Assembly (NCBI RefSeq): GCF_030845175.1
Contig: NZ_CP132542.1
Span: forward strand, 3,755,501 to 3,819,500
Length of the DNA: 64,000 nucleotides
Reading direction: 5' to 3'
Source: Coralliovum pocilloporae
Lineage (GTDB): Bacteria; Pseudomonadota; Alphaproteobacteria; Rhizobiales; Cohaesibacteraceae
A program made the position numbers and the translations under genes. Below are positions 22,164 through 48,418 of this stretch, one piece after another (positions within the stretch are counted from its first letter, which is position 1; each line of letters opens with the position of its first letter). The notes under the pieces were generated by a model that made no database searches, was not told the origin of the DNA, and saw nothing but the letters and a program-made list of their open reading frames with translations.

Positions 22164-22711
22164 CCGGGCTGCCGACGAGATCAACACCGGTCAGGTATTC
22201 AAATACAGCGATCCGCCAAGCGTTTGTGATTTGTTAACCATAACTTTATTCCGCTAAGAGTAGGATCCGACGAGAAACGGTATTCAGGTAAGCGAAAAGT
22301 GTGGCGTGTAGAAGAAGATCGAGACATGTTTGAAAGGGGTTTCTGGCCATCCTGCCGATGTCCACGGCTTTGCCTCTGCTGTTGACCAGTGCTCACGCGC
22401 AATGTGTCTCTGTTGGTGATACAGCCACCTGCTGTCATCCCGGACAAGCGTAGCGCAGATCCGGGAACCAGAGGCGGCAGGTTCTGAGTGTGGGGCTTCT
22501 TTCCGGCTGGATGCCGGATCAAGCGCGTTCCTGAAAAGTTGCAGACTTTTCAGACAAGAATACGCGACAGAACAAAGCCCGGGATGACACGGAGAGTGTG
22601 GCGCGCTCTGTGCCTCTGCTCCGCCTCCCTGCCTCTGCGCCACCCACAAACTGTCATCCCGCACGTGATGCGGGATCCAGAGCGGCCTTACCTCAGACAC
22701 AGGCCTTTGCC
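22164..22711. repeat. Repeat-rich intergenic region with REP-like and palindromic units
   Basis: No gene is supported. From about 22430 it holds GTCATCCCGG... and ...CCGGGATCCAG REP-like units, a full palindromic repeat (22522-22567), and GTGTGGCGCGCTCTG / GGCGCAGAGGCA blocks that recur in inverted orientation at 34330-34770. The part before 22430 shows nothing recognisable. Confidence 0.65.
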
Positions 22712-23047
22712 TCACCCCTTGGGCAGAGCCTCAAGCTCTCGGCCTTCAATCTCACCACCGTCGGTCAGCTGGCGGATGCGGAAGAGGCCGTCGCTGGTCT
22801 TGTAGACAATGCCGACCAGCGCGTCATCGGGCAGCATATGGACCCCCAGATTGCGCGCCGTTCGGAAGGCAGCCTCATCCTCTTTCTGCCATTGGGCCTC
22901 CATCCGGCGGATCCGGTAGTTCAGCACCAGCGCCAGAGCGGCAATAAAGGTAAGAGAGGGCATCAGCACCCAGGCCATCTTGATCCAGTCCGGCATGGAC
23001 TGGAGCGTGTCGAACATATCGAACAGGAAAGACCCGTTATTCTCCAT
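22712..23047 (-). CDS. Small one-TM protein, copy A
   Basis: About 111 residues from ATG 23047 (GTG 23053 also possible). After an amphipathic start (MENNGSFLFDMFDTLQSMPD), one TM helix WIKMAWVLMPSLTFIAALAL leads into a basic, helical linker and a C-terminal domain (RNLGVHMLPDDALVGIVYKT ... REALPKG-like). It is nearly identical to copy B, which has four extra residues; the roughly twenty remaining nucleotide differences I counted are synonymous. It follows the structured RNA. I do not recognise the family. Confidence 0.82.
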   Translation of the reverse strand: MENNGSFLFDMFDTLQSMPDWIKMAWVLMPSLTFIAALALVLNYRIRRMEAQWQKEDEAAFRTARNLGVHMLPDDALVGIVYKTSDGLFRIRQLTDGGEIEGRELEALPKG

Positions 23048-23072
23048 CGTCACAACCCCGCTTGCGTTTCAT
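23037..23072 (-). CDS. Possible leader peptide, copy A
   Basis: An 11-codon frame encodes MKRKRGCDDGE and its stop codon overlaps the start region of the small membrane protein. It is identical in the other copy. Translational coupling or attenuation is conceivable, but no direct evidence of translation exists. Confidence 0.35.
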   Translation of the reverse strand: MKRKRGCDDGE

Positions 23073-23076
23073 GGAA

Positions 23077-23370
23077 CCGCCAGAGAGAAACGAGAGGGGA
23101 CAAGAACCCGACGCTCCCCCTCAAGGGGCACGTCTTCTCATATCTCTGGCGGACGGGGAGTTAGTAAACCGTATCGAGACGGTCGCACTGGCTTTTAAGC
23201 CGGACCCGAAGACCCAACTCTCTATGGCCAGTGCCTCCCCGCCCATAGAAACGTCGTGACGAATCGTCATGTGACGGTATCACATGAGTGAGGAGACACC
23301 ATTATACGGCTGATGTCAGCCGCTCGATAAGGGGTTACTAAGCCCCAGGGCCGTATATGCCCGACCCTGA
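23077..23370 (-). ncRNA. Structured RNA, copy A
   Basis: Read on the minus strand, this folds like the copy at 33660-33952. Its internal 8-bp stem is GCACTGGC/GCCAGTGC where copy B has GCATCGGC/GCCGATGC. A GGGTC-TTCG-GGTCC hairpin replaces the CTCG-loop form. The outer CCGCCAGAGA/TCTCTGGCGG stem is identical. A TATAGT -10 lies at 23375-23380 (reverse). No known RNA family was recognised. Confidence 0.7.
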
Positions 23371-23441
23371 TGCAACTATAGAGTGATTTGTCGGTTGTGG
23401 GCAAGGGGGATGTGGGGATAGTGGCCTCGCTAGTTATTTAG

Positions 23442-23717: not shown

Positions 23718-25001
23718 TTGCCTGACAAACTTGAAGCACTCTTGAACGGCCTGAGGTTAGAATCCTCTAGCCCTGTCGCCAACGTGGAAGTTAGGCAAGA
23801 CGTAGACCAAATCTATAAGTTGTTCGACCTAGAGCGCACGATACGGTTTTTTGGGCAGCGATATTGGGAAAGTGAAAGCCGCTTCGAGAGTGCAAGACCC
23901 GGATTGTTGCAATTAGAAAATGTCGCGGCGCATTCTTTTCAGGTTGCCAATACTGTTATGCTTTTGGGAGGTCGGTTTCCAAATCTCGACGTTAGTAGAG
24001 CAATCGAATTAGCCATCGTTCACGACCAACTTGAGATGATTACCGGGGACAAAGACCCAGTAGGGAGATATGGTGACGGTTCAGATACTCACGCATTCGG
24101 TGTGTCCGAACGGGAGGCAAAAACTGCCGAAGAAGAAGCAGCACTTACTGACTTTGTGAGTAATCTAGCTCCGAGCGCTGCTGGTTGCTACTACGATCTG
24201 ATCTCTGAGGTGACTGCCGAGAAAACGATCGAAGCAAAATTTGTCAAAGCCGTCGATAAGCTACAAGCTTTGGCTTTTGTTAGGGTCAAAAAGGTTGGCG
24301 ATATCGGCCCCTCTCATCTTTCTTTCACTATCAGATATTCACGAGAAGGAGCTAAGAAATTTCCTGAATTGCAACAATATTTTAGCTTGATTTTGAAGGA
24401 TCTCTTAACTGATGTAGAACAAGTTTTTCCTGCGAGTTTTCACTCCTATTGCCAGATTGCTAGCGACATTTTGGATGGCGATTTTGTTCCACCACGAGAC
24501 CAGTTGATGCGAGTTGCTCTGATTGGTAAGTCTGGTGTGGGTAAGTCGACCGTGGCTAAGCTGCTAAACTACCACGTGGGAGCAGAAAGGGTTTCTTCTG
24601 GTGCGATATGCCGGCAGATCGCAAAACTGCTTTTTGGCAATGACGACAAGTCTACTACTCAAACACTTGATGATGTCCTAACAAAGATTGATTCATCAAT
24701 CTTTTTGAATGCTGCACTGCTTACCGCGCCAGTAGGGCGTTCGATATGTTTAGATTCTCTACGGTTTAAGTCTGATTACGAAATAGCTAGGAAACGTGGT
24801 TTCACGATCGTAAGGGTGATCGCATCTGATGACGTGAGGGTAACAAGACTGGCTGAACGTGGTCAGGGGTTCGACTTGGTGAAAGATGGCTCACATCGGT
24901 CTGAAACTGAATTAGACCATGTGGACGTGGATTATACTGTCGATAATAGTGGAAATATTGATGCGCTTGAAGCCTCCGTAAGGCCTCTGATCGGCTATTA
25001 A
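23718..25001 (+). CDS. HD phosphohydrolase fused to a P-loop nucleotide kinase
   Basis: 427 residues starting at TTG 23718 after GGAAGTAAG. Residues about 30-240 form a YfbR-like HD domain: His72 in AAHSFQVAN, His102-Asp103 in IVHDQLEMITGD, and a distal Asp in KAVDKLQALAF. Residues about 264-427 form a dNMP/dephospho-CoA-kinase-like P-loop domain (LIGKSGVGKSTVAKLL; CLDSLRFKSDYEIARKRGFTIVRV; RLAERG). Such folds dephosphorylate and phosphorylate (deoxy)nucleotides. The stop codon abuts the next ATG directly, giving a tight operon with a nucleosidase gene. AT-rich and probably acquired; a nucleotide-targeting defence role is inferred. Confidence 0.8.
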   Translation: MPDKLEALLNGLRLESSSPVANVEVRQDVDQIYKLFDLERTIRFFGQRYWESESRFESARPGLLQLENVAAHSFQVANTVMLLGGRFPNLDVSRAIELAIVHDQLEMITGDKDPVGRYGDGSDTHAFGVSEREAKTAEEEAALTDFVSNLAPSAAGCYYDLISEVTAEKTIEAKFVKAVDKLQALAFVRVKKVGDIGPSHLSFTIRYSREGAKKFPELQQYFSLILKDLLTDVEQVFPASFHSYCQIASDILDGDFVPPRDQLMRVALIGKSGVGKSTVAKLLNYHVGAERVSSGAICRQIAKLLFGNDDKSTTQTLDDVLTKIDSSIFLNAALLTAPVGRSICLDSLRFKSDYEIARKRGFTIVRVIASDDVRVTRLAERGQGFDLVKDGSHRSETELDHVDVDYTVDNSGNIDALEASVRPLIGY

Positions 25002-26873
25002 ATGCGCAAGAACATTTTTCTCCATTTCTTGAACCGTGATACTCGCGAGATTTTCCGTGTTTATGATGTACTCCGACGGCCTGATCATGCAGCAATCTTG
25101 CGCCAACCTCTGAACGCTGCTGCCATTCTTTGCGAAGATACGTGCTACGCGCCTCCTGGATTTGTACTTGAGGATGATATTGCGTTTGAATTGTTTGAGG
25201 GCCAGTCGTCTTACCTTCGTACGGGCTTGATAAAGTTACCTATTCGTGAAAGGAGTTTGGTCGACTATGCCGAGAAAAAGCGCGGCGAATACGCTCCTGC
25301 GAGAAATCGATACTCTGGATTGTTCGATGACAGTAGGCTTATGTCTTTGTCTTCTTACAGCGATGCGCTGGTCGATCGAAAGGCGCAAATTGGGCCTGCC
25401 ATAATTGCAGGTTTTGAAGGAGGAGTTGATTCCAAAGCAAAAGTTTGGAAGCACATCAAAGAAAATGCCTCAACTGACGCAATTGACAATCTCAGAGAAA
25501 CACCGGCAATTCTTGCAGATCAAGGGAAAGCTTTGACTTGGTCGATCATCTCACCTCATCTGATAGACGAGACAGCTCCCATCCATAAGGAGATGAGAGA
25601 TGCACTACAGCATGTGTATTTTAAAGAGTATTGCAGTGAGTTCAGGCTTATTTTGTTATCAGATGTCCCTTACATGCCAGAGCTGTTTTTCTTGCCTTCG
25701 GATCGTAAGGTTTACAGCTTTCGGAGATTGAAAGTGTTCCTTGAAGCTTTCTGTAGCTCGACACTGTTCCTCAGAGCGTCCGCTGATTTTATTACAAGAA
25801 TGAGGCGAGCTACAGGATTTACTGATTTATTCGATGCGTATGTACAACTCGCGAAATTATACCCAAAAGATGGAGATTTGGCCTATCACGTTCGACGTTC
25901 GGTTGAAAAAGCTAAGTTCAAATGGGACGACATTGCGGCAAGAAGAATCGGTGTCTTGAGTGACCCTACTGAAATAGAATCTATTGAAATTGCAGATGCT
26001 TGCGCAGAACTTGCGGCCTCACTATCGGCTGAGCACGGGTTAACTGCACGAGGGGAAAATTCAACTAAGCCTCTTGCAAAAGCATCCATAAGATCTACTG
26101 GAGATAGAAGATTGAAGATAGCAATATTTGTCGCCTTGGAAGAAGAGCTCGATGTCCTGCTGAAGCAGCTCGATTTTACGCGTGACGCCAGCGGCGGCGC
26201 CAGCGGTTTGATCGGCAAGATAGAAGTTGACGTGCTTTGTCCTCGTGAAATGGGTCGTGTTGCAGCGGCAGTCGAGATGACTAGGTATTTGGGTCAAGCA
26301 CAGAAAAAACCTGAGATGGTTTTCTGTATTGGGCTTGCGGGTGGGTTTGCTGAAGAGAATGTTGATCCAGGGACCGTCATCTGCTGCGAGACGGTCGTCG
26401 ATCTTGCAAATCGCAAGGTGATGGATGACAAAGATGGCAATGCGAACTCTAAGTTCAGAAGACGAGACTTCGAGTGCAACAGAACAGTTTACTCTGTATT
26501 GAAATCATCAGATTTCGGTTTGGATGATTGGGAAAGGTATTGCCGTGATAGCTTTGATTGGCCTGCTGGTCGCGTTCCTTCACTAAAAGAAGGGAAAATT
26601 GCGAGCGTCGATGAGGTTGTGGCAAGTGACAACCATAGAAAAAAAATGGTTGCAAGTGTTGATAAGCTTTTGGGTGTAGAAATGGAAGCTGGTGGTGTTT
26701 GCGCCGCAGCACATAAGTTTCTAGTGCCAGTGTCAGTGCTGAGAGTCGTATCTGATATGGCAGACCCATCGAAAGCTGATGATCAATGGCGGTCGACCGG
26801 TATGAAAACGCTAGCAGAACTTGTGAAACGGCTTCCTTTAGGTCAGGTAATCGACCTTGCTAAGAACTTATAG
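25002..26873 (+). CDS. Large protein with C-terminal MTAN-like nucleosidase domain
   Basis: 623 residues beginning at the base after the upstream stop. Residues 1 to about 360 match nothing I recognise and are soluble and mixed alpha/beta. From about 370 a purine nucleoside phosphorylase/MTA-SAH nucleosidase domain follows: KIAIFVALEEELDVLLKQL, CIGLAGGFAEENVDPGTVI, GVEMEAGGVCAAA and LRVVSDMADPS. The ligand Glu of VEMEA and the catalytic Asp of SDMAD are present, so hydrolytic activity is plausible. Nucleosidases of this type are effectors in several bacterial conflict systems. With the HD-kinase partner it could act on nucleotide or cofactor pools. The convergent next gene overlaps by 14 bp. 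Confidence 0.8.
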   Translation: MRKNIFLHFLNRDTREIFRVYDVLRRPDHAAILRQPLNAAAILCEDTCYAPPGFVLEDDIAFELFEGQSSYLRTGLIKLPIRERSLVDYAEKKRGEYAPARNRYSGLFDDSRLMSLSSYSDALVDRKAQIGPAIIAGFEGGVDSKAKVWKHIKENASTDAIDNLRETPAILADQGKALTWSIISPHLIDETAPIHKEMRDALQHVYFKEYCSEFRLILLSDVPYMPELFFLPSDRKVYSFRRLKVFLEAFCSSTLFLRASADFITRMRRATGFTDLFDAYVQLAKLYPKDGDLAYHVRRSVEKAKFKWDDIAARRIGVLSDPTEIESIEIADACAELAASLSAEHGLTARGENSTKPLAKASIRSTGDRRLKIAIFVALEEELDVLLKQLDFTRDASGGASGLIGKIEVDVLCPREMGRVAAAVEMTRYLGQAQKKPEMVFCIGLAGGFAEENVDPGTVICCETVVDLANRKVMDDKDGNANSKFRRRDFECNRTVYSVLKSSDFGLDDWERYCRDSFDWPAGRVPSLKEGKIASVDEVVASDNHRKKMVASVDKLLGVEMEAGGVCAAAHKFLVPVSVLRVVSDMADPSKADDQWRSTGMKTLAELVKRLPLGQVIDLAKNL

Positions 26874-30669: not shown

Positions 30670-33408
30670 ATGAGGCAAACTACTTCAATGAAGAGATTTT
30701 TAGATCCCGCACTCGCTACCCTAGTTGCCCATGGAGCAACACCACAGGGTATTAAAGATGCATTGTCTTCATCAAATGGTAGTCAGTATGTGAAATGCGC
30801 CTTTCAGGTAAACCCGTTCGCCTATGGAAGCCGCCATGCAAAAGGAAATGGGTTTACGAAAGAGGACGAGTTTAATAATGCGATGGTCAAGGCATGCCAA
30901 GAGAACGGTGTAGAAGTAGTCGCGCTTACTGATCATTTCCGTTTTGACCATTCTGAAAGTCTTAGAACGAAGTTGGAAGAGGCTGGGATCACGGTATTTC
31001 CCGGTTTCGAGGCAAATTCCGCAGAGGGAGTACATATTCTTTGTCTCTTTCCACCCGGAACAACCAGCTCCGATATGAATGAGAATGTTGGGGCTTGTGA
31101 CATTCGAAATCGCGACGATCCTTCACCGATCGCCCGCAAAGGTTTTGAGGAAATACTCGAAGTCGTACATGATCGTGGCGGCATTACCATTTCGGCGCAC
31201 GTAACCCAGAGTAATGGTTTGCTGAAGGCGCTCTCTGGTCAAACACGAATGAATGCGTGGAAGTCACCAATGCATTTGGCGTCAGCTATCCCCGGTCCAC
31301 GTGGTGATGTACCTCCGGAATATCGACAAATTTGTCTCAATAAGGACGATGCACACAAAAGAGATCGGCCCGTTAGCTTTATCAACGCGTCTGATGTTTC
31401 AGCACCGGGAGATTTCGCAAAACCTGGCAATACGACCTTTCTCAAAATGACTGAGGTCTCGATAGAGGGCCTGCGACAGGCTTTTCTTGATGGTGAAAGC
31501 CGGGTCATGCTCAACTCAGACGAACTTCCATCCGAATTCACGCGAGTTGTTGCCGTCACTTGGGATGGTGGGCTGCTCGATGGTCAGTACGTAGCGCTGA
31601 ATGCCGGATTGAATGTGATGATTGGCGGTCGTGGTGCTGGTAAGTCCACAATCGTTGAAAGCCTGCGTTTCGCCTTTGACATACCACCGCTGGGTGCAGA
31701 TGCAGCGAAGAGCCATGAATCGATGATCAAGCATCTGTTGGGGTCGCATTCAGCGGTTTCGGTCTTGATTTTTTCGCCTAGCCCATCGCCTGGTTACTAC
31801 TTGATTGAGCGCGCTTACAAGCAGGAACCACGAGTTAGAAATCAGTCGGGTGATATCGTGGCTGCCCTGAAGCCGGGTGACATCATTTCTGACTTGGAAG
31901 TTTATGGCCAGCATGAAATTTCTGAGATAACGAGGCATAAAGGTCAACTTGCCGAGCTGCTCGGGCGCTTTGTCAGTACGGATAATGAAGCGACGGTTAG
32001 TGAGGACAGGATCAAGGAACGCTTCCGAACCTCGCGAAAGAAAATCACAGCCCTTGGCGAAAAAATCGCCGAACTGGACCTTGCTTTGGCCGCACTGCCG
32101 GGACTCAAGGAACGACTCAAACGCTTCGAAGAGACCGAGCTTGCGACACGCCTGAAAGAACATGCATCTATCCAGCATGAACATCGAATACTCGACGACT
32201 TCTCCAAAGCTATAGCTGCATTTGAACAAACGGGAGACGCACTAAAGCCGGACAGGGAAACGGCATCAACCGTTTTACCATCAGAAGAAGAAGCGGAATT
32301 ACCGCACAGAGAAGACTTGGCCAAAATCCAAGCGATTGCGCAGGATATGCACGAAGCCCAAGTGCAAGCGGCAAGTGTGCTGGCAAAAGCGGCTCAGAAG
32401 GCTACTACCGATTTGGTGGCGATACGCTCTGAGTGGGAACCAAAGGCCGATGCTGTTGAAGCGACGTACAAGTCGTTAAAGAAAGAGCTGGAGGGTGAGG
32501 GCTTCGAACCCGACACTTACCTGATCGTGAAACAACAAGTCTCTGTACTCAAACCGAAGCAAGCGCAGAAGGATCAGGCTACTTCGGAACTGGTAACCGA
32601 ACAAAGGGCACGACAGGGCATAGTCGATGAATGGGAAAAAGCTGACCGAAAAGCCTACCGTGACCTTGAGAATGCGGCGAAGAGGGTCAGCAAAAAGCTA
32701 AAAGGCACGGTTCGTGCCAGTGTTCGCCCCAGTTCCGACCTGGGACCATTGGAGCAGGTCTTGCGGGATGGAACTGAAGGACAGATCAGTCAAGCCTTGA
32801 CGAAGTTGCAAGAACTTGAAGATTTCCTGCCCTCGAAATTGGCTGCGACGATCCGCAAGGGTACGCAAGCGCTTAGCGATGAATTTGGCTTCACCAATTC
32901 ATCCTCTCAAAAGATCGCTGCTGGGGGCGAAACACTGGCTTTGCTGGTTGAAGAAACGCGGATACCGCCTGAGGCTGTTATTGAACTCAACATTGGTCGG
33001 GATGGAGTCGAGAACTGGAAGGAACTCGACCGCTTGTCTGCCGGTCAGAAGGCGACGGCTGTTCTGATGCTGTTGCTGCTGGAGTCAGACGCTCCCCTGA
33101 TCATCGATCAACCCGAAGATGACCTCGATAACCAGTTCATAGCCGGACATGTCGTCGAGAAAATGCGCATTGCCAAGAAGCAGCGCCAGTTCTTATTTTC
33201 AAGCCATAATCCGAATATTCCGGTTCTAGGTGACGCTGACCAGATCATTGGTCTTACGCCAGTCGTTGAAGATGGCCTAGACCGGACCAAGATTGAGCAA
33301 GAACTGTGCGGTTCTATCGATAAAGAAGAAGTCCAAGAGCTAATAAAAGAGCTTTTGGAAGGCGGCGAACAAGCATTTTCGATGCGTCGAAGAAAATACG
33401 GCTTTTAG
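30670..33408 (+). CDS. TrlF-type PHP-SMC ATPase
   Basis: 912 residues. Residues about 40-280 resemble a PHP phosphoesterase: VVALTDHFRF and ITISAHVTQS are kept, but the usual HxH of motif I is replaced by QVN (CAFQVNPFAY). From about 300 an SMC/AAA15-like ATPase follows: Walker A GGRGAGKST near 319-327, a long coiled coil (about 440-700), the signature LSAGQKATAVLML, Walker B APLIIDQPEDDLDN, and a FLFSSHNPNIP switch. The family occurs as stand-alone genes in defence islands. It is AT-rich relative to puuD. The start could be ATG 30670 or the internal ATG 30688. Confidence 0.8.
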   Translation: MRQTTSMKRFLDPALATLVAHGATPQGIKDALSSSNGSQYVKCAFQVNPFAYGSRHAKGNGFTKEDEFNNAMVKACQENGVEVVALTDHFRFDHSESLRTKLEEAGITVFPGFEANSAEGVHILCLFPPGTTSSDMNENVGACDIRNRDDPSPIARKGFEEILEVVHDRGGITISAHVTQSNGLLKALSGQTRMNAWKSPMHLASAIPGPRGDVPPEYRQICLNKDDAHKRDRPVSFINASDVSAPGDFAKPGNTTFLKMTEVSIEGLRQAFLDGESRVMLNSDELPSEFTRVVAVTWDGGLLDGQYVALNAGLNVMIGGRGAGKSTIVESLRFAFDIPPLGADAAKSHESMIKHLLGSHSAVSVLIFSPSPSPGYYLIERAYKQEPRVRNQSGDIVAALKPGDIISDLEVYGQHEISEITRHKGQLAELLGRFVSTDNEATVSEDRIKERFRTSRKKITALGEKIAELDLALAALPGLKERLKRFEETELATRLKEHASIQHEHRILDDFSKAIAAFEQTGDALKPDRETASTVLPSEEEAELPHREDLAKIQAIAQDMHEAQVQAASVLAKAAQKATTDLVAIRSEWEPKADAVEATYKSLKKELEGEGFEPDTYLIVKQQVSVLKPKQAQKDQATSELVTEQRARQGIVDEWEKADRKAYRDLENAAKRVSKKLKGTVRASVRPSSDLGPLEQVLRDGTEGQISQALTKLQELEDFLPSKLAATIRKGTQALSDEFGFTNSSSQKIAAGGETLALLVEETRIPPEAVIELNIGRDGVENWKELDRLSAGQKATAVLMLLLLESDAPLIIDQPEDDLDNQFIAGHVVEKMRIAKKQRQFLFSSHNPNIPVLGDADQIIGLTPVVEDGLDRTKIEQELCGSIDKEEVQELIKELLEGGEQAFSMRRRKYGF

Positions 33409-33625
33409 TCATTGGAGTAGAGGTTATATTTTGAATCACTTTGTTTTTTGTGGAAAACTGACAGTCTTCGGGAAGGCATAAATCTGCTGCGCAAATAGCT
33501 CATCACTTGAACGTGACAGGGCATAGCGAATGCTTGCTCTCCGCCCATTTCCGTCGTCGATCTCATCTCGCTCTCCCTCGGAACCCCCATTCAAATAACT
33601 AGCGAAGTTATCCCCCACATCCCCC

Positions 33626-33655
33626 TTGCCCACAACCGACAAATCACTCTATAGT
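33626..33655 (+). promoter_or_regulatory. Sigma70-like promoter of the structured RNA module, copy B
   Basis: TTGCCC (33626-33631) and TATAGT (33650-33655) are 18 bp apart and conserved in copy A. Transcription would begin near 33661. A second TATAAT at 33724-33729 is also conserved but lacks a good -35 and lies in a predicted stem. Confidence 0.5.
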
Positions 33656-33659
33656 TGCA

Positions 33660-33952
33660 TCGGGGTCGGGCATATACGGCCCCGGGGCTTGATAACCCCT
33701 TATAGAGCGGCTGACATCAGCCGTATAATGGTGTCTCCTCACTCATGTGATACCGTCACATGACGATTCGTCACGACGTTTCTATGGGCGGGGAGGCATC
33801 GGCCATAGAGAGTTGGGCCCTCGGGTCCGGCTTAAAAGCCGATGCGGCCGTCTCTATACGGTTTATCAACTCCCCGTCCGCCAGAGATATAAGAAGGCGT
33901 GCCCCTTGAGGGGGACCGTCGGGTCTTGTTCCCTCTCGTTTCTCTCTGGCGG
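33660..33952 (+). ncRNA. Structured RNA, copy B
   Basis: Stems, in order: ATACGGC/GCCGTAT (33674/33720) enclosing GGGG-CCCC; alternative CGGCTGA/TCAGCCG (33708/33717); CATGTGA/TCACATG (33744/33756); a long helix GGGCGGGGAG/CTCCCCGTCC (33786/33870) enclosing GCATCGGC/GCCGATGC (33796/33838), a CTCG-capped hairpin and a CCGT/ACGG hairpin; and CCGCCAGAGA/TCTCTGGCGG (33878/33943) enclosing CCCC-ttga-GGGG. Two base pairs (33799-33842 and 33800-33841) covary with copy A. G-U pairs fit this strand only. It may be a leader of the downstream gene or a free RNA. Confidence 0.72.
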
Positions 33953-33956
33953 TTCC

Positions 33957-33992
33957 ATGAAACGCAAGCGGGGTTGTGACGATGGAGAATAA
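33957..33992 (+). CDS. Possible leader peptide, copy B
   Basis: MKRKRGCDDGE, identical to copy A, begins 4 nt after the last RNA stem and stops 11 nt inside the membrane-protein frame. Any ribosome-binding site would be in the 3' strand of the final stem. Confidence 0.35.
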   Translation: MKRKRGCDDGE

Positions 33993-34329
33993 CGGGTCCT
34001 TTCTGTTCGATATGTTCGACACGCTCCAGTCCATGCCGGACTGGATCAAGATGGCCTGGGTGCTGATGCCCTCCCTCACCTTTATTGCCGCTCTGGCGCT
34101 GGTGTTGAACTACCGGATCCGCCGGATGGAGGCCCAGAGAGAAAGGGAGTGGCAAAAGGAGGATGAGGCGGCCTTCCGCACGGCGCGCAATCTGGGGGTC
34201 CACATGCTGCCTGATGATGCTCTGGTGGGCATCGTCTACAAGACCAGCGACGGCCTCTTCCGCATTCGCCAGCTAACCGACGGCGGCGAGATTGAAGGCC
34301 GGGAGCTTGAGGCTTTGCCGAAGGGGTGA
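33982..34329 (+). CDS. Small one-TM protein, copy B
   Basis: 115 residues from ATG 33982 with GGGG eight bases upstream; GTG 33976 is an in-frame alternative. The sequence equals copy A except for a four-residue RERE insertion after RRMEAQ in the juxtamembrane linker. It has one TM helix, a charged cytosolic linker and a compact C-terminal domain of unknown function. Nucleotide differences from copy A are frequent but synonymous, which indicates selection on the protein. Confidence 0.83.
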   Translation: MENNGSFLFDMFDTLQSMPDWIKMAWVLMPSLTFIAALALVLNYRIRRMEAQREREWQKEDEAAFRTARNLGVHMLPDDALVGIVYKTSDGLFRIRQLTDGGEIEGRELEALPKG

Positions 34330-34926
34330 GGTCTAGGTCTGCGCCTGTGCCTGAGGCAAGGCCGCTCTGGATCCTGCATCGAGTGTGGGATGACATCCTG
34401 TGGGTGGCGCAGAGGCAGGGGTGGAGCAGAGGCGCAGAGCGCGCCACACGCTCCGTGTCATCCCGGCCCCCGAGCCGGGATCCAGCCCGGAAGAAGCCCC
34501 ACTCTCAGAGCCTGCCGCCTCTGGTTCCCGGATCTGCGCTTTACTTGTCCGGGATGACAGGCGGGGGATGGGGTGGAGCAGAGGCGCAGAGCGCGCCACA
34601 CGCTCCATGTCATCCCGGACTTTATTCTGTCGCGTATTCTTGTCTGAAAAGTCTGTAACTTTTCAGGAATGCGCTTGATCCGGCATCCAGTCGGGAAGAC
34701 GTTCCACACTCAGAACCTGCCGCTTCTGGTTCCCGGATCTGCGCTCCACTTGTCCGAGATGACAGACTTTGGGTGGGGTGGAGGAAACGGCCTTTCCCCT
34801 CACGCCCATGTGTTCGGGGGTGAATGACTTCTGCTGATCTGTTGCCACACTCCCCCTGTATGAGCGGGGGAGTGCAGCGTTTGGCTGGCGATATTGAATT
34901 CTTGGACAGGATGAAAGGAGCGGATC
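34330..34926. repeat. REP-like and palindromic repeat array
   Basis: Alternating GTCATCCCGG / CCGGGATCCAG units and GGAGCAGAGGCGCAGAGCGC blocks occur at about 34420-34440 and 34573-34593, with one palindromic repeat at 34631-34675. From about 34780 the sequence is unique and carries the promoter and AGGAG site of the dioxygenase gene. No ORF here is supported. Confidence 0.65.
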
Positions 34927-47110: not shown

Positions 47111-48418
47111 ATGATGACTGACACCCTGCTTCTGCGCGGCCGCGTTCTCTCCTTCAAGTCTGAGCCCCAGGGCCCGGACGATACCGATGCCTTCACCTAT
47201 CTGGAGGATGGGGCGTTGCTGGTCTCAGACGGCCTGATCCGGGCGGTCGGGCCTTATGACAGTCTCGCACAAGAGGCCGGGGATGCCCGTCTTGTGGACC
47301 ATCGGCCCAACCTGCTGATGGCCGGGTTTATCGATACCCATCTGCATTTCCCGCAGGTGCAGGTGATTGCCTCCTGGGGCGCGCAGCTGCTCGACTGGCT
47401 CAACACCTATACGTTTCCGGAAGAAACCCGCTTTGCCGATGAGGGCCACAGCGCCGAGATGGCCGGGCACTTCTATGACCAGATCATCGCCCATGGCACC
47501 ACAACGGCCGTGGCCTATTGTTCTGTTCACAAGGCCTCGGCAGACGCCTATTTCTCAGAAGCCGCGCGCCGCAACATGCGGATGATCGGCGGCAAGGTGC
47601 TGATGGACCGCAACGCCCCCGATGGCCTGCGCGACACACCACAGAGCGGCTATGATGACACAAAGGCACTGATTGAGGCCTGGCATAACAAGGGGCGCGG
47701 ACTCTATGCCATCACCCCGCGGTTTGCCATCACCTCAACCCCTGAACAGATGGAAATGGCAGGTGCCCTGGTGCGGGAGCATCCCGATTGCTACATGCAG
47801 ACCCATCTGTCTGAGAACCATGATGAAATCGCCTTCACCAAAGAGCTGTACCCGGACGCGCCGGACTATCTGGGGGTCTATGAGCATTATGGGCTTCTGA
47901 CGCCGAAGGCCCTGCTTGGCCATTGTATCCATCTGGAAGAGCGCGAGATTGATGTGCTGGCCGGAACCGGGGCAAAACCGGTCTTCTGCCCTACCTCGAA
48001 TCTGTTTCTCGGCAGCGGGCTGTTTGATGATGCAGGCCTGCGGGCGCGCGGCATAACCAATGCCATTGCCACCGATATTGGCGGCGGCACCAGCTATTCC
48101 ATGCTGCAGACCCTGAATGAAGGCTACAAGATCCTGCAGCTCCAGAACCAGAGCCTGCACCCCTTGCGCGCCTTCTACTGGATCACCCGCGGCAATGCGG
48201 AAGCCCTGGGCCTCTCAGGGCAAATCGGCACACTCGAGGCAGGCGCCGAGGCCGATATCGTCGTCCTCAACGCCAGCGCCACACCCCCCATGGCCCTCCG
48301 CTCAGAACGCACCAGAACCCTCTCAGAAGAACTCTTCATCCTCCAGATCATGGGCGACGACCGAGCCGTGGATGAGGTCTACGTGGCCGGGGTAGCGCAG
48401 AAGGGGGTTGGCGGGTAA
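47111..48418 (+). CDS. guaD: Guanine deaminase
   Basis: 435 residues of the amidohydrolase superfamily. The metal site HLHFPQ (FIDTHLHFPQVQVIASWG), the WLNTYTFPEE signature, QTHLSENHDEI, HCIHLEEREI and ATDIGGGTSYSMLQTL identify guanine deaminase. It makes xanthine for XdhABC and ends the run xdhABC-permease-guaD. The start is ATG 47111 or 47114. Confidence 0.94.
   Translation: MMTDTLLLRGRVLSFKSEPQGPDDTDAFTYLEDGALLVSDGLIRAVGPYDSLAQEAGDARLVDHRPNLLMAGFIDTHLHFPQVQVIASWGAQLLDWLNTYTFPEETRFADEGHSAEMAGHFYDQIIAHGTTTAVAYCSVHKASADAYFSEAARRNMRMIGGKVLMDRNAPDGLRDTPQSGYDDTKALIEAWHNKGRGLYAITPRFAITSTPEQMEMAGALVREHPDCYMQTHLSENHDEIAFTKELYPDAPDYLGVYEHYGLLTPKALLGHCIHLEEREIDVLAGTGAKPVFCPTSNLFLGSGLFDDAGLRARGITNAIATDIGGGTSYSMLQTLNEGYKILQLQNQSLHPLRAFYWITRGNAEALGLSGQIGTLEAGAEADIVVLNASATPPMALRSERTRTLSEELFILQIMGDDRAVDEVYVAGVAQKGVGG

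Follow-up and report, generated by a model that had tools for sequence, protein, structure and literature searches.

The window, the whole 64,000-nt stretch of DNA analysed here, covers positions 3755501-3819500 of the 3.918-Mb chromosome of Coralliovum pocilloporae. It holds two copies of a compact module, copy 1 at 33593-34329 on the plus strand and copy 2 at 22712-23441 on the minus strand, exactly where a preliminary description had put them. A genome-wide search brings the number of full copies to four rather than two; copies 3 and 4 lie at C1:3838474-3839172 and C1:3885520-3886214, 49 and 96 kb beyond the window pair. All four share a promoter, an RNA region of about 300 nt, an 11-codon leader ORF and a protein with one transmembrane (TM) segment. 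The promoter, leader and protein had already been reported for copies 1 and 2, and we find each of them in both. The promoter hexamers are identical in every copy (TTGCCC-N18-TATAGT), and the leader peptide, MKRKRGCDDGE, is the same in the aligned copies. A fifth match in the genome, C1:2013984-2014051, is not a copy of the module: just 68 nt of the protein-coding portion survive there, as a relic that adjoins a REP-like repeat and has no RNA part remaining. Repeats of the type TGTCATCCCGG...GGATCCAG lie 3' of three of the four copies (34329-34700 and 22430-22700 in the window) and occur elsewhere in the genome as well. Past the 3' end of copy 2 there is also a long hairpin (an inverted repeat, 81% over 79 bp, at L002:876-957) whose match to a microRNA model is surely chance.

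Table 1. Parts of the two window copies and their neighbours, numbered from the first nucleotide of the window.
Feature	Positions	Strand	Basis or detail
Copy 1 neighbour, 912-aa PHP/AAA protein, PADLOC Ppl	30670-33408	+	Ppl 1.2e-38
Copy 1 promoter	33626-33655	+	TTGCCC (33626-33631), 18-nt spacer, TATAGT (33650-33655); direct reading
Copy 1 first leader hairpin, GGGGTCGGGCATATACGGCCCC	33662-33683	+	helix 2: 97.7% of cells paired, double changes in 6/6 pairs
Copy 1 a1-presenting hairpin, GGGG-CTTGATAA-CCCC	33684-33699	+	loop is a1 (TTGATAA), which pairs with J3/1
Copy 1 b1, TATAGAG	33701-33707	+	complement of P3 loop; different in each of 4 copies
Copy 1 C4-like RNA core	33786-33883	+	Rfam models, R2 model, fold, covariation
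Copy 1 core stem P1	33786-33795/33870-33879	+	
Copy 1 core stem P2	33796-33803/33838-33845	+	encloses inner hairpin
Copy 1 core stem P3	33846-33851/33858-33863	+	loop b' at 33852-33857
Copy 1 J3/1 (a')	33863-33869	+	
Copy 1 core 3' end, GCCA	33880-33883	+	RCCA, RNase P-like
Copy 1 downstream hairpin, CCGCCAGAGA/TCTCTGGCGG	33878-33952	+	helix 15, 95.7% paired; direct reading
Copy 1 leader ORF, 11 codons, MKRKRGCDDGE	33957-33992	+	overlaps start of membrane protein gene; direct reading
Copy 1 small one-TM protein, 115 aa	33982-34329	+	protein analysis, related proteins behind the same RNA
Copy 2 small one-TM protein, 111 aa	22712-23047	-	protein reading
Copy 2 leader ORF, 11 codons	23037-23072	-	sequence reading
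Copy 2 C4-like RNA core	23146-23247	-	b' loop CTCGAT at 23173-23178; R2 80.5 bits; RF02221 28.4 bits
Copy 2 b1, TATCGAG	23323-23329	-	sequence reading, alignment
Copy 2 promoter (TTGCCC ... TATAGT)	23375-23404	-	sequence reading
Copy 2 neighbour, probable defence cargo	23718-26873	+	HD/AAA protein (23718-25001), PNP-superfamily effector (25002-26873)

The small protein is under purifying selection. Copies 1 and 2 differ by 23 synonymous and no non-synonymous substitutions, which agrees with the earlier claim that the changes are synonymous, and copy 1 has a 4-codon insertion besides. Three of the copies differ by 15-23 synonymous against 0 non-synonymous changes. Over all pairs of copies there are 9 to 23 synonymous changes and 0 to 2 nucleotides at non-synonymous codons, the amino-acid change being in copy 4 only. 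Its C-terminal part is soluble, it shows no homology to toxins, and searches of Pfam, PHROGs, PADLOC, plasmids, phages, IMG/VR and GTDB contigs gave no match to it. At L040, L041, L042, L046, L050, L056, L057 and L068 the RNA is followed by related small TM proteins that carry the motif ED-YNFW-DFFDTYQSLSDWIK. A weak relative of the protein in G052 has too little space upstream for the RNA.

The RNA core of copy 1 folds at -55.5 kcal/mol into three stems, P1, P2 and P3. The RNA also folds far better than shuffled sequence does (z -5.5). Stem P2 is the 8-bp stem of the preliminary description, GCATCGGC/GCCGATGC (33796-33803 with 33838-33845) in copy 1 and GCACTGGC/GCCAGTGC in copy 2, and the two compensated pairs are there. 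The inner hairpin, which had been noted for its YTCG loops, likewise still pairs, with loops CTCG or TTCG. More telling than these stem changes is the covariation between the P3 loop (b') and a segment about 150 nt upstream (b1). In copies 1-4 the loops read CTCTAT, CTCGAT, CTACTT and CTTGTT and the upstream segments ATAGAG, ATCGAG, AAGTAG and AACAAG (33702-33707 in copy 1); the pair is distinct in each copy and covaries every time. The joining segment J3/1, TATCAA (TACTAA in copy 2), complements the leader segment TTGATAA (TTAGTAA). Among the four copies the cognate b1/b' loop duplexes are worth -6.9 to -8.3 kcal/mol, and all 12 crosses come to -3.2 or weaker. Beyond the core, the hairpin CCGCCAGAGA/TCTCTGGCGG would, from its base pairing, mask the GGCGG ahead of the leader ORF.

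This arrangement is a familiar one. C4 of phage P1 is a classical phage-immunity RNA: it is cut by RNase P to a stable product of about 77 nt, which represses translation of a coupled pair of downstream ORFs. The phage P1 record AF234172 marks a1 (48255-48261), b1 (48269-48276), C4 (48343-48419), a2, b2 and icd. In that sequence a1 (TTGACAG) lies in a hairpin loop after the first hairpin and pairs with J3/1, and b1 pairs with the P3 loop. The hairpin GGGG-CTTGATAA-CCCC has the layout of c4-a1b1 (RF03163) of phage P1. Our module shares with C4 and c4-a1b1 of phages P1 and P7 (RF01695, RF03163) the promoter, the first hairpin, a1 in a hairpin loop, b1, the three-stem core, J3/1 as a' and the P3 loop as b', the order of these parts, the variable target-pairing segments and the overlapping ORF pair downstream. 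It also has hints of processing in its sequence, a GG 5' end and an RCCA 3' end. The differences are that the window RNA is chromosomal, in four copies beside defence systems, that it precedes a small membrane protein instead of icd-ant, and that it falls below the Rfam cut-off. Our core model (R2, below) does not recognise the C4 of phage P1 either (3.7 bits, not significant). The further target of C4, a2/b2, in which b2 lies on the ribosome site of the controlled gene, is absent in the window's order and present in relatives outside the Alphaproteobacteria; downstream copies of b1 in this order amount to nothing beyond chance (4.89 vs 4.93 permuted). The 3' strand of stem P1 and J3/1 instead resemble the complement of a ribosome site (GGGGAG with CUCCCC, GGGGTG with CACCCC), a modest resemblance, 5 nt only in copy 1, whose significance is inflated by relatedness and partly confounded.

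No Rfam family reaches its gathering score in the window, including at the RNA. A permissive search places sRNA-Xcc1 (RF02221) at 29.9 bits and C4 (RF01695) at 21.6 bits on the same stretch, 33780-33886, and both miss their thresholds, 53 and 45 bits. RF02221 scores 26.9-29.9 bits in the four copies, which are its top four matches in the genome (E 0.006-0.03); RF01695 has no match genome-wide at E<=10. The alignment accounts for these matches: the core folds into P1, P2 and P3, with complements between loop and leader. The recognition also works in the other direction. At the level of the phylum R2 finds a site in G856 (L179, 453-539, minus strand; 37.8 bits, genome E 8.3e-5) that is an accepted sRNA-Xcc1 member, with 69.9 bits by RF02221. 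The claim that this RNA belongs to no known family is therefore right as far as gathering scores go, and fails on the topology of phage P1 C4 and on the two-way model matches with sRNA-Xcc1. By its architecture the RNA is of C4 type, hence not an unknown kind, and is set apart by the missed Rfam cut-offs and the absent b2.

The likeness to sRNA-Xcc1, an integron-borne RNA upstream of symE in Xanthomonas, has two sides. It is the best Rfam match in all four copies, it precedes a small gene in a mobile-element setting, and one of its above-threshold members is the site that R2 recovers; against this stand the 29.9 bits where 53 are needed, another downstream gene, and no integron seen at the window copies. 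The L179 site carries a1 and b1 as well as downstream sites that match, and this suggests C4-type control for sRNA-Xcc1 upstream of symE too. Other loci outside the Alphaproteobacteria have a1/b1 too, and the P3-loop region finds a downstream complement of at least 7 nt in 9 of 13 such loci, mostly on the Shine-Dalgarno sequence. Uniting C4 and sRNA-Xcc1 in one layout gives a concrete, testable mechanism for the latter.

Two models were used for relatives: R1, made from the four copies, and R2, made from the core only with the leader left out. R1 matches 45 of 397 genomes of the order (26 of 141 genera). R2, which gives 79.5 and 80.5 bits for window copies 1 and 2, matches 58 of 385 genomes of the class, about one in seven, with up to 11 matches in one genome. 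In an alignment of 62 distinct sequences the paired cells make up 92.6% (73.8% after shuffling), and the covariation score is 0.305 against 0.118 shuffled (0/500) and at most 0.052 slid; the core stems, helices 10-14, covary across the set. That alignment was fitted to the model, and the pairing of a1/b1 with the core lies outside the model's structure. It can be judged separately: 49 distinct a1b1/P3 pairs have a cognate mean of -16.7 kcal/mol where the best among 20,000 permutations is -11.4, and at 30 class-wide loci found with the core-only R2 the unmodelled leader pairs with its own core (-29.6 vs -22.7 permuted). The covariation, and the lack of an Rfam family at gathering score, support the central proposal of the preliminary description, that a structured RNA on the strand it named lies upstream of a small membrane protein and that both appear to be under selection. 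The covariation also shows that the C4 architecture is spread through the Alphaproteobacteria beyond the reach of the Rfam models.

The expectation that the RNA always precedes the small protein does not hold. It precedes related TM proteins in several genera, and in other loci an Mrr nuclease, DUF2285-like and XRE genes in probable integrative elements, and other small membrane proteins (the labels DUF2285-like, XRE and integrative element, here and below, were given from sequence without a database search). In Cohaesibacter the RNA is followed by a 39-codon ORF that overlaps the start of an Mrr endonuclease by ATGA. A general link between Mrr and the RNA is ruled out: it is confined to Cohaesibacter, 2 of 29 named loci. 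The overlapping short ORFs here recall icd-ant1 of phage P1 and orf45-anrP of IsrK (PMC4825925). A sub-group of the RNA sits in probable rhizobial integrative elements (L064, L067, L070, L072, L077, L079, L082, L086-L088, L091, L092) between a RepA-like/excisionase-like pair and a DUF2285-like gene, and may control transfer of the element.

On the promoter side of all four copies there is a PADLOC system, a different one each time. Copies 1 and 2 have the neighbours in Table 1, copy 3 a type VI retron and copy 4 PD-Lambda-5. The cargo of copy 2 is the weakest of the four cases (PDC-M60C 2.6e-15, Effector PN-superfamily 3.8e-11; domains HD_3 and PNP_UDP_1). For comparison, 1 of 40 other proteins in the window has any PADLOC match at E<1e-15. 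The retron, an HTH protein plus reverse transcriptase, lies directly upstream of copy 3 (L019:7577-8768). The RNA-Mrr unit of Cohaesibacter has as its upstream cargo Gabija, another Gabija, Mokosh or DUF4297-HerA; in L044-L055 a fixed RNA-Mrr unit in one chromosomal setting has exchangeable defence cargo, which makes the site a defence hotspot. Further neighbours elsewhere are a type I restriction enzyme (L066), a type I methyltransferase (L042), capP (L041), PDC-S49 (L061) and PDC-S06 (L093). Defence neighbours are not universal, since many relatives lie in probable integrative elements or elsewhere with no such gene in view.

We think it very probable that in each module the coupled short ORF and membrane protein are under the control of a C4-type antisense RNA. 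One transcript from the conserved promoter would carry the leader with a1 and b1, the C4-like RNA, the leader ORF and the overlapping membrane protein gene. The 3' half of the C4-like RNA, J3/1 as a' and the P3 loop as b', can pair with a1-b1. The duplex of a1b1 with the core excludes P3 and the 3' strand of stem P1, which leaves the transcript two states that cannot coexist. The C4-like RNA, if cut out by RNase P at its GG...RCCA ends, could act in trans also. Translation of the leader ORF would be shut off, by one of the two states or by a processed core RNA in trans, and that of the membrane protein with it through coupling and polarity, by analogy with icd-ant of phage P1 and orf45-anrP of IsrK. 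In this order b' is without the downstream ribosome-site target that it has in phage P1, and the 3' strand of stem P1 and J3/1 could pair with the ribosome-binding region instead. Because the four b1/b' pairs differ, each switch should answer to its own RNA alone; a cell with four lock-and-key pairs that exclude one another would possess a ready-made series of orthogonal antisense switches. The membrane protein is probably an effector that acts on growth and is held silent next to the defence system, and our guess at its purpose is an addiction module or a back-up abortive-infection guard. The setting beside exchangeable defence systems raises the question of whether expression of the membrane effector is released on infection.

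The pairing data are explained equally well by action in trans and by an mRNA leader that works purely in cis. In the cis case the a1b1/core pairing and the three-stem fold would form a conformational switch, like structures A and B of IsrK, that senses temperature, an ion, translation or termination state, with no free antisense RNA. Leader and core are always in tandem on the same strand, the paired state is the predicted minimum, and IsrK is a precedent for such a switch ahead of coupled ORFs, orf45-anrP (PMC4825925). In that system, from Salmonella prophage Gifsy-1 (RF01394), there are likewise two exclusive structures, and a short upstream ORF is silenced by pairing of the leader RNA with about 30 nt of sequence further downstream, for which we liken it to the window RNA; it differs as a prophage switch with a terminated leader sRNA, and the window has no isrK match. 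We consider the purely cis reading rather unlikely, as the ends of our RNA look like those of processed C4, its nearest known relative, sRNA-Xcc1, is a discrete 88-nt RNA in Xanthomonas (PMC2996969), and the C4-like RNAs of Acinetobacter appear processed (PMC5320573).

If the TM protein were a toxin and the C4-like RNA its antitoxin, in the manner of type I systems, the module would stabilise the adjoining defence cargo by addiction and the private pairs would stop cross-protection among the copies. Such a role says what the module is for and can coexist with C4-type control. It is favoured by the short TM proteins that follow the RNA in many genera and by four mutually non-pairing copies, each beside different cargo; we hold it tentatively, given a protein with a soluble part and without toxin homology, and loci with DUF2285-like or XRE genes in its place. 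That the RNA is mainly an immunity RNA acting in trans on incoming phage or plasmid RNA, with the membrane protein incidental, might be thought from its place in defence islands and from the phage immunity that P1 C4 confers. We find this improbable: in nearly every locus the leader contains the match to the variable loop, and the membrane protein shows strict conservation. A mobile DNA element, an integron cassette or MITE, whose inverted repeats act as folded single-stranded DNA in recombination, might also be suspected, since the 0.7-kb unit stands in four near-identical copies at separate sites and sRNA-Xcc1 occurs in integron cassettes (PMC12444791). This is very unlikely for a unit with a conserved promoter and leader ORF, coding under selection and the leader-core pairing of the phage P1 c4 layout; a search for direct repeats bordering the four units of cargo plus module also came up empty.

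If the C4-type reading is extended to the whole class, the Alphaproteobacteria would hold a large unannotated clade of C4-type antisense RNAs, through which genes in defence islands and integrative elements are each kept under a private expression lock. The locked small membrane proteins would be silent back-up effectors, freed when a phage interferes with RNA processing, termination or translation; they would accompany whatever defence cargo the island acquired. We offer this as speculation that is rather unlikely to hold. The C4-like sRNAs of Acinetobacter baumannii (Group 1, PMC5320573) resemble the window RNA in their many chromosomal C4-type RNAs per genome and variable specificity segments; they differ in matching the Rfam C4 motif, and the accessible part of that account describes them without a linked small membrane protein or defence neighbours. 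Among the loci collected here, L108 has a tandem pair of C4-like cores at 1382-1473 and 1501-1593 on the minus strand.
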